This document shows, piece by piece, positions 21,283 through 22,333 of a stretch of 52,024 nt of DNA. This stretch comes from Gammaproteobacteria bacterium. GTDB lineage: Bacteria; Pseudomonadota; Gammaproteobacteria; UBA6429; Thiohalophilaceae. Under the pieces are notes generated by a model. That model was given only the letters and a program-made list of their open reading frames with translations, had not been told where the DNA came from and made no database searches. Numbering within the stretch: the first letter of the stretch is position 1; every line of letters begins with the position of its first letter. The stretch lies in assembly GCA_029881995.1 (NCBI GenBank), contig JAOULO010000020.1:1-52024 (forward strand), in the 5' to 3' direction. The position numbers and the translations under genes are program-made.

Positions 21283-21358
<76 letters not shown>

Positions 21359-21365
21359 GATTTTG

Positions 21366-21396
21366 AAAACCTCGGTGAAAACACCGGGGTTTTTTT
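21366..21396 (+). terminator. Intrinsic terminator after tRNA-Gly
   Basis: A 12-bp stem (AAAACCTCGGTG / CACCGGGGTTTT, with one T-G wobble) and an AAAA loop, followed by three more T. It lies between tRNA-Gly and tRNA-Cys, so tRNA-Cys needs readthrough or another promoter. Confidence 0.8.
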
Positions 21397-21415
21397 GTAA
21401 GATAAGCACGAATAT

Positions 21416-21489
21416 GGCGGGATGGCAGAATGGCTATGCAGCGGATTGCAAATCCGTGGATCTCGGTTCGACTCCGGGTCCCGCCTCCA
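21416..21489 (+). tRNA. tRNA-Cys(GCA)
   Basis: A 74-nt gene including CCA. The acceptor stem GGCGGGA/TCCCGCC is perfect, the anticodon arm CGGATTGCAAATCCG carries GCA, the T-arm is CGGTTCGACTCCG, and the discriminator is T, as expected for tRNA-Cys. Confidence 0.96.
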
Positions 21490-21562: not shown

Positions 21563-21597
21563 GCCCGGGTGGCGAAATTGGTAGACGCAAGGGACTT
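21563..21597 (+). tRNA. tRNA-Leu(UAA), 5' exon
   Basis: The first 35 bases of a tRNA-Leu: acceptor strand GCCCGGG, D-arm, 5' anticodon stem AGGGA and loop bases C, T, T up to the wobble T34. It is interrupted after T34 by a group I intron; the 3' exon is at 22282-22333. Joined, the loop reads CTTAAAA with anticodon TAA, closed by AGGGA/TCCCT, and the product is 87 nt including CCA. Confidence 0.93.
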
Positions 21598-22281
21598 AAA
21601 TTTTTGAGCACTCAGTAGGGAAACCACTGATGTGAATGGAGTCAAATTCGGGGAAACCTCAGCATGTAAAGTTGGTGGCAATCCCGAGCTAAGCCTGAGA
21701 ACGGTTTTTACTTCGATATGTTGGAGTAAGAGCATGGCAGTTAGGACACAACATTCGAAGATTTTTGATTCGATTGTCCTGATTGTTACCGTTTATATGA
21801 TCAAGCTCTAGTGGAATAGGCTGATTGAGCCACACAGCGTTCTTACAATTCATACACTGATGGTCAAAAATACCTTCTTTAAGAAGCCTGTTTTTGAGTT
21901 TATAAGATTGAATTGGAATTTTGTTGTTTAAGTAATACTCAATCGGTTGTTTTGGGCCAAGTTTTTTGCCCTTGTTCCAGGCATGACCATGGAAATGTGA
22001 TGTATCAAGATCAAAGTGCTTAATTGCTTTTCTTAGAACGTCGTAATTTCCACCAAACGGAGAAACTGCAAGTTTTTGCAGAACCTGTCTCATTGAGGTA
22101 GAAGTTTTAATTGCCGATCTGAGTTGTGATTCTGAATACTTATGTAGTTTCATAGTCCTGTCCTTAGGAAAGTGTAGAGACTTGACGGCTCCTGCCTACG
22201 TCATTTTATATGATAGGGTAAAGAGAAAGTCCAGACCACAAATGCATTTATGATGCAGCGACGAAAGTCGTAGCGGGTAAG
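21598..22281 (+). ncRNA. Group I intron in tRNA-Leu(UAA)
   Basis: A 684-nt intron inserted between the first and second anticodon bases, the same site as the well-known cyanobacterial/plastid tRNA-Leu intron. Core elements are readable: P1 (exon CTT with intron GAG, a U-G pair at the splice site); P2 with a GAAA loop (CAGTAGGGAAACCACTG); the P4/P5 block TTCGGGGAAACCTC…GGCAATCCCGAGCTAAGCC; P7 GACTT/AAGTC; P3 GGAG/CTCC in GACTTGACGGCTCC; P8 CCTA…TAGG; P9 with CGAC-GAAA-GTCG; and terminal G at 22281. It should self-splice. The HNH gene occupies the P6 extension on the opposite strand. Confidence 0.92.
21689..22153 (-). CDS. HNH homing endonuclease inside the tRNA-Leu intron (antisense)
   Basis: A 154-residue HNH nuclease. 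The C-terminal half has the zinc pair CMNC, the catalytic LELDHINGNNQDNRIKNLR and the second pair CPNCH, the pattern of HNH homing endonucleases; the N-terminal half (YSESQLRSAIKTSTSMRQVLQKL, read in parts) looks like a DNA-binding helical domain. It lies in the P6 extension of the group I intron but is read from the opposite strand. AAGGACAGG precedes its ATG. Its stop codon lies within P4'/P6 core sequence, so the two constrain each other. It probably cuts intronless tRNA-Leu genes and mobilises the intron. Confidence 0.88.
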   Translation of the reverse strand: MKLHKYSESQLRSAIKTSTSMRQVLQKLAVSPFGGNYDVLRKAIKHFDLDTSHFHGHAWNKGKKLGPKQPIEYYLNNKIPIQSYKLKNRLLKEGIFDHQCMNCKNAVWLNQPIPLELDHINGNNQDNRIKNLRMLCPNCHALTPTYRSKNRSQA

Positions 22282-22333
22282 AAAATCCCTCGGTGGCAAC
22301 ACCGTGCCGGTTCGAGTCCGGCCCCGGGCACCA
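22282..22333 (+). tRNA. tRNA-Leu(UAA), 3' exon
   Basis: The 52-base 3' exon: AAAA of the anticodon loop, TCCCT closing the anticodon stem, the long variable arm CGGTGGCAACACCG, the T-arm CCGGTTCGAGTCCGG, acceptor strand CCCGGGC, discriminator A and an encoded CCA. The acceptor pairs fully with the 5' exon at 21563-21569. Confidence 0.93.

Follow-up and report, generated by a model that had tools for sequence, protein, structure and literature searches.

An HNH endonuclease family tied to tRNA-Leu genes, with and without a group I intron, in a gammaproteobacterium and in phages

Known group I introns of tRNA-Leu(UAA) genes share with the intron described here the tRNA itself, the position after U34, the core layout and a variable P6. 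The present intron, which lies in the window (the whole 52,024-nt stretch of gammaproteobacterial DNA that was analysed), differs from them in carrying an antisense HNH gene in P6, in its gammaproteobacterial host and in its phage relatives. In Beggiatoaceae, also Gammaproteobacteria, tRNA-Leu-TAA is likewise interrupted by a presumed group I intron (PMC4853749), where, unlike in the window, no HNH gene is described in the available text. Group I introns occur in other bacterial tRNAs as well (PMC8450103), and those of phages tend to sit in conserved protein-coding genes (2014 review). Antisense homing endonuclease genes (HEGs) in nuclear rDNA introns, for example I-DsqI, likewise lie opposite a group I ribozyme in a peripheral loop (PMC9548176). 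The HEG of the window differs in being of the HNH rather than the His-Cys type, in residing in a bacterial tRNA gene, in occupying P6 and not P9, and in having no separate compartments that keep the two transcripts apart.

In the models of collaborative homing and HEG invasion, a free-standing HEG lies beside a HEG-less intron, the two are thought to have a common target, and the HEG enters the intron (available parts of PMC3984707 and PMC10448857). How a ribozyme and an endonuclease gene become one mobile intron is posed there as an open question (PMC3984707, section 12), and the origin of the collaborative arrangement is called unclear in the part of PMC10448857 that was available. Unlike these models, the present case has one HEG family in all of the states, at one tRNA gene, in phages as well as in chromosomes, with a putative target. 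SegB of the T-even phages is reportedly an enzyme of the GIY-YIG rather than the HNH type. It is likewise a phage homing endonuclease, cuts within adjoining tRNA genes and, unlike the tRNA-Leu-linked HNH, acts without an intron, as far as the available text of PMC13096335 goes. HNH genes have also been described among phage tRNA genes and proposed to spread them; the available text (PMC6409571) names no single partner tRNA and mentions no intron, unlike what is found for the HNH family here. Taken singly, the elements all have precedents, among them introns of tRNA-Leu, homing enzymes of the HNH type, HEGs antisense to their intron (in nuclear rDNA), collaborative homing and tRNA-cutting phage enzymes. 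Their combination in a bacterial tRNA gene, above all a tRNA-Leu-bound HNH family with the full range of states across phages and chromosomes, was not found in the literature searched. Specifically, that literature, consisting mostly of papers outside subscription and including the available parts of PMC11835236, PMC6409571 and PMC6293099, holds no description of a phage tRNA-Leu intron, a tRNA-Leu-linked HNH or a bacterial antisense HEG.

Positions 21563-22333 (+) of the window form a tRNA-Leu(UAA) gene of 771 nt, interrupted between U34 and A35 by a 684-nt group I intron. The junction, placed after U34 in the preliminary description, follows exactly from intronless relatives at the same locus, which read AGGGACTTAAAATCCCT where the window reads AGGGACTT[684 nt]AAAATCCCT. 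Together, sequence and intronless homologues define a 5' exon at 21563..21597 (+), the last base of which is U34, and a 3' exon at 22282..22333 (+), in which CCA is encoded; the intron between them (21598..22281, +), placed by sequence, intronless relatives, Rfam and alignment, has G as its final base. Closely upstream lies a native tRNA cluster of tRNA-Gly(GCC) and tRNA-Cys(GCA) (21283..21489, +; ARAGORN), preceded by genes that we take to be uvrC-like and pgsA-like. The split tRNA-Leu(UAA) of the window was not called by ARAGORN. A second, intact copy of tRNA-Leu(UAA) would have counted against the preliminary description, and none was found among the RF00005 loci and ARAGORN calls of the assembly (completeness 97.3%). 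This search, RF00005 followed by ARAGORN, returned 28 distinct tRNAs with the Leu anticodons TAG, CAA, CAG and GAG only, a number so low that the assembly or the tRNA search probably misses some.

Elsewhere in the family, an uninterrupted tRNA-Leu(UAA) was called by ARAGORN at 18 of the 30 loci scanned, with tRNA-Gly and tRNA-Cys alongside in 16. The intron is patchily distributed, being present at the locus in 9/40 family genomes and missing from the congeners G001 and G002, and five of the nine intron-bearing genomes lack a match to the HNH. Across the class, intron DNA was matched in 33 of 369 genomes; 22 of the 30 loci returned were solved as tRNA-Leu introns (L453 doubtful), and six of these 22 hold an HNH gene in P6, one copy being decayed. 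Intron-core-like DNA that gave no tRNA-Leu solution was seen at further gammaproteobacterial loci (L468, L470, L471 and L474-L477), two of which, L475 and L476, exceed the Rfam group I cut-off. In addition, four records of Bradyrhizobium plasmids (e.g., NZ_CP094524.1 6509-6792) show ~69-70% identity to the whole of the tRNA-Leu and intron.

The group I core proposed at the outset is borne out by pairing, with P3, P4 and P7 kept in 32 introns, but the window itself falls under the Rfam gathering score (22.4 versus 50). RF00028 matches the 5' half of the intron (22.4 bits, E 0.0026), and the shortfall in score most likely reflects the splitting of the core by the HNH insert; in a family member whose intron lacks the HNH, the score is 56.7 bits, above the gathering score. 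In an alignment of 32 intron rows from which inserts had been removed, all of the cells counted were paired in P3 (5' strand 21638..21641, +, partner 22189-22192; 128/128, with a double change in one pair), in P4 (5' strand 21648..21652, +, partner 21683-21687; 159/159) and in P7 (5' strand 22179..22183, +, partner 22227-22231; 160/160). Since P4 and P7 are invariant, covariation is confined to P3 and the peripheral helices. Among the 76 pairs given by RNAalifold, which include tRNA arms and some non-native pairs, 30 show changes in both partners, most of them in P2, P8, P9 and the variable arm of the tRNA. The P6 stem (5' strand 21694..21698, +, partner 22164-22168), with the HNH gene in its loop, was read from the sequence and stands outside these pair counts.

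The P6 loop is filled by an HNH endonuclease ORF of 154 aa on the opposite strand (21689..22153, -; ORF list and profile searches), as the preliminary description had it, running from ATG to TAG without an internal stop. Its nearest profile families are phage HNH endonucleases (phrog_10822, E 4.9e-48); the Pfam HNH_3 score of 21.4 lies under the cut-off of 24.8, and NCBIfam matches to the protein fall far below cut-off. Residues C100, C103, H119, C136, C139 and H140, representing the HNH motif and the zinc-binding cysteines, are invariant in 39 rows. A structure model (mean pLDDT 89.9, pTM 0.59) has N-terminal helices and places the HNH residues in the C-terminal region; a PDB fold search with it gave no match at E <= 0.001 and weak matches to McrA-type HNH folds. 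Identification with a solved structure through the HNH region of IscB was also considered and was not used, the sequence match being weak (E 0.075). Against L035, the nearest relative, dN/dS is about 0.12 with dS near 1, and values of 0.06-0.14 were obtained in seven other computable pairs, some near saturation, with 12 of the 17 window pairs saturated. The ORF is intact and conserved and, as judged from these ratios, is under purifying selection. The reading frame also holds in most relatives and is broken in L048 (an in-frame stop), G279 (split by stops) and G282 (a remnant); such decaying copies fit the life cycle of a homing gene.

The ORF was correctly said to end inside core sequence: in the alignment of inserts, its TAG stop (21689..21691, -) is the reverse complement of the CTA in the core segment GAGCTAAG. 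The same stop is used by 22 of the 23 chromosomal P6 inserts examined (L048 giving no reading, and L203 and L204 resembling second copies of L040 and L045) and by none of four phage P6 antisense inserts. The overlap between ORF and ribozyme is real and small, comprising the stop and the last codons on the 5' side of P6. Because the nuclease gene of chromosomal P6 forms stops within core sequence, ribozyme and nuclease functions share bases. The further suggestion that the tRNA transcript and the mRNA of the nuclease control each other found no support, with evidence pointing neither way; no promoter-like site was seen upstream of the ORF on its strand, and the TATA-like stretches visible by eye in the P8 loop of some members are not consistent across members. 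The ATG is preceded by AAGGA in the window, and other members vary in this respect.

Two features that were absent from the preliminary description emerged from wider scans, namely the tie of this HNH family to tRNA-Leu irrespective of an intron, and its occurrence outside the intron and in sense orientation. A scan of GTDB by the HNH protein alone, blind to tRNA, returned 23 loci, and all 23 are at tRNA-Leu(UAA): 18 in P6 and antisense, four just 3' of an intron-containing tRNA-Leu, and one 5' of an intact tRNA. At L051, L054, L055 and L056, the intron is HNH-less and a free-standing, convergent HNH gene lies just 3' of tRNA-Leu, the layout of a collaborative homing pair, which phage loci show as well; a Parcubacteria HNH of 51% identity lies directly 5' of an intact tRNA-Leu(UAA). 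The record titles of L037 (Alphaproteobacteria) and L044 (Klebsiella pneumoniae) are doubtful MAG labels. Near the weak gammaproteobacterial HNH matches L208-L212 (19.7-27.5 bits), no tRNA was called.

Two IMG/VR scans returned 25 and 80 loci, the latter being the best 80 of 512, with 10 contigs in common and 95 loci distinct by contig. Linkage was counted where a tRNA-Leu lay <=300 nt away or the HNH gene lay inside or beside a tRNA-Leu intron. By this measure tRNA-Leu accompanies the HNH in 94 of 94 testable distinct viral loci, the second scan entering with its best 80 of 512; L073, whose contig is also that of L311, was left out, its sequence beginning within the HNH gene. The anticodon is mostly UAA, with UAG in L077, L080 and L081 and CAA in L253. 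Thirteen of the 80 second-scan loci were placed by eye or hand (12, plus L328): the junction was given by script in nine, L310 was read fully, L317 was read by eye, L292 has the 3' exon only, and in L319 the tRNA-Leu contains, between U34 and A35, an odd insert of 46 nt unlike a group I core. In 25 viral rows the HNH adjoins an intron; scripts solved the junction in 17 of them and reading by eye in seven (four sharing the L059 sequence type and three the L295 type), and in L325 the 5' exon is cut off.

The positions found for the HNH gene comprise the 3' flank, codirectional or convergent, the 5' flank, P6 in antisense, P6 in sense (including L214, a 595-kb phage) and the P1 loop in sense, and the phage copies adjoin mostly intronless tRNA-Leu. 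Further introns with the HNH in P6, in both orientations, came from a scan selected by intron core, along with several broken pieces of HNH genes on the 5' side of the tRNA; none of these enter the linkage counts. Among named phages with 35-49% identity, sampled as 10 records out of 235, tRNA-Leu lies beside or around the HNH in six, other tRNAs in three and none in one. One HNH family at one tRNA gene presents the states expected of such a system, next to a target without the intron, next to one that contains it, and within the intron at two places, P6 being occupied on both strands, a series that makes the origin of composite mobile introns testable and that also shows phages carrying tRNA-Leu introns.

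The anticodon stem bears on the candidate target. Phage tRNA-Leu(UAA) genes without a nearby HNH carry G30-C40/A31-U39 in 99 of 110 cases, as against 10 of 39 distinct HNH-adjacent intronless genes, a contrast that is confounded because the controls were chosen on a canonical D-arm, present in one of the 39 adjacent tRNAs. A non-canonical D-arm is also seen in several intron-containing HNH-linked tRNAs. The intron-containing HNH-linked set, 53 loci that were not deduplicated and 16 of which were unsolved or had an implausible junction, shows the G30-C40/A31-U39 pattern at 36 of 37 script-solved junctions (the exception, L272, has U40); among the 16, L059, L295, L310 and L317 show the same pattern by eye. 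The stem pattern fits a putative target at about positions 30-40, with the intron or a stem change serving as protection, the control being confounded by tRNA type.

We hold with good confidence, from comparative sequence evidence, that the HNH is a homing endonuclease dedicated to tRNA-Leu, living with and without the intron in phages and having moved many times around one target. The intron of the only tRNA-Leu(UAA) found in the assembly would have to be removed for the tRNA to form, as its intact core implies. The target would be the tRNA-Leu gene, most likely the intron-split region of the anticodon arm, the linkage being observed and the cleavage presumed. Cleavage of an intronless allele by the enzyme would lead, through repair, to intron and gene being copied into the break. 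Phages carry the same family next to tRNA-Leu genes, whether or not these contain the intron, and the HNH gene would have moved between the 3' flank, P6 and the P1 loop many times. The chromosomal antisense orientation matches the convergent 3'-flanking form of related phages, and so was probably inherited from arrival rather than being a regulatory design. Counting against this reading as a whole, many HNH genes adjoin intronless tRNA-Leu genes that would have to be resistant, and the neighbour in distant named phages is not always tRNA-Leu. The Pfam and Rfam scores below their cut-offs, the lack of a PDB fold match at E <= 0.001, the HNH and intron distances that fail to correlate in P6 forms and the negative search for a target-like sequence in P6 (the last two described below) weigh on the same side.

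On a quickly built maximum-likelihood tree of 115 HNH proteins, part of them taken from the scan selected by intron core, position must change 28 times, intron presence 20 times and orientation six times; the tree carries SH-aLRT values only, 42 of its 111 inner branches are open, and several branches are long. Chromosomal flanking forms fall twice among P6 forms, L051/L054/L055 with L049/L050 (98, starred) and L056 with L045 (92). This nesting speaks for a quite conceivable course in which the HNH in P6 is ancestral and a flanking gene is a new free-standing copy beside the tRNA, the intronic copy having been deleted. The P6 of L051, HNH-less yet keeping arms like those around the HNH in the P6 of L049, speaks for it as well, as does the single junction common to the chromosomal P6 forms (22/23 examined), and such replacement is proposed for other loci in the available part of PMC10448857. 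However, most phage forms in that region of the tree are of the convergent 3'-flanking kind (8/11 rows), and the P6 arms could equally predate the insertion. Invasion of P6 by ectopic cleavage at a fortuitous target-like site was considered separately and is unsupported: in 0/23 HNH-less introns did the P6 match GACTTAAAATC more closely than shuffled sequence did (p<0.05).

Identical or nearly identical HNH proteins stand beside intron-plus and intron-minus tRNAs in the pairs L059/L061, L161/L299 and L069/L064. In the first, the HNH is identical in kept columns, the tRNA of L059 having the intron and L061 having a different, intronless tRNA(UAA); in the last, the flanks are common, and intron and anticodon stem differ. 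Where the HNH lies in P6 and PgsA is available (n=14), distances between HNH proteins do not follow those between introns (Mantel r 0.16, p 0.21), so that HNH and intron are not moving strictly as one unit; with flank forms added (n=18) the correlation is r 0.37, p 0.002, and intron distances correlate with those of host PgsA in the P6 forms (n=14; r 0.43, p 0.002). As far as such sequence distances can tell, this suggests that the HNH moves partly independently of the intron. It would also suit a passenger HNH that homes beside tRNA-Leu alone, with the intron spreading separately (e.g., by reverse splicing) and the target merely common, as would the many introns without HNH (5/9 intron-bearing family genomes) and the mostly intronless neighbours of phage copies. 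We regard this as rather unlikely, as the repeated entry into the intron (P6 on both strands, P1 loop) and the pairing of the same HNH with intron-plus and intron-minus neighbours suggest interaction. HNH folds occur in defence nucleases, and the model of this protein has weak fold matches to nucleases of that type. With the intact, conserved state of the gene, these matches could be taken to mean that the HNH acts elsewhere, for example in cleaving RNA or in defence against phages, and is retained because it benefits the host; this is very improbable, given that its nearest families are the phage HNH endonucleases of phrog_10822, that in phages and bacteria alike it is the tRNA-Leu gene to which the HNH is linked, and that the HNH decays in some lineages.

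Returning to the homing endonuclease dedicated to tRNA-Leu, we tentatively propose that the tRNA-Leu group I intron and a tRNA-Leu-specific HNH have an active reservoir in phages, which deliver both to bacterial chromosomes, with intron occupancy and anticodon-stem mutation as alternative routes by which a tRNA-Leu gene becomes immune to the enzyme. The trnL intron of cyanobacteria and plastids may have spread in the same phage-borne way.

Several phage loci deserve mention in their own right. The phage contigs L064 (949-1025) and L066 (2370-2446) carry UAA-anticodon tRNAs of ~73-77 nt beside the HNH, with an apparently short variable arm. In L310, after position 1944, a phage tRNA-Leu intron appears to contain a second insert besides the HNH of its P1 loop, a coding-like stretch in the P8 region. 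Second, partial HNH relatives lie near tRNA-Thr(UGU) or tRNA-Gln in L289 (2698-2937), L317 (440-775), L290 and L302, as if sister enzymes were tied to other tRNAs. In Pelagibacter phage HTVC120P (MH598807.1 19653-19807), a gene annotated as capsid protein overlies DNA that resembles the core of the tRNA-Leu intron. The cultured Agrobacterium phage Atu_ph07 has an unannotated tRNA-Leu(UAA) with a group I intron (L482, 112030-114135), and elsewhere in its genome an HNH of the wider family adjoins tRNA-Leu(UAG) (L221). Finally, a Pistol ribozyme (Rfam RF02679) lies at 519-581 of L075, in the same phage contig stretch as the HNH/tRNA-Leu pair.
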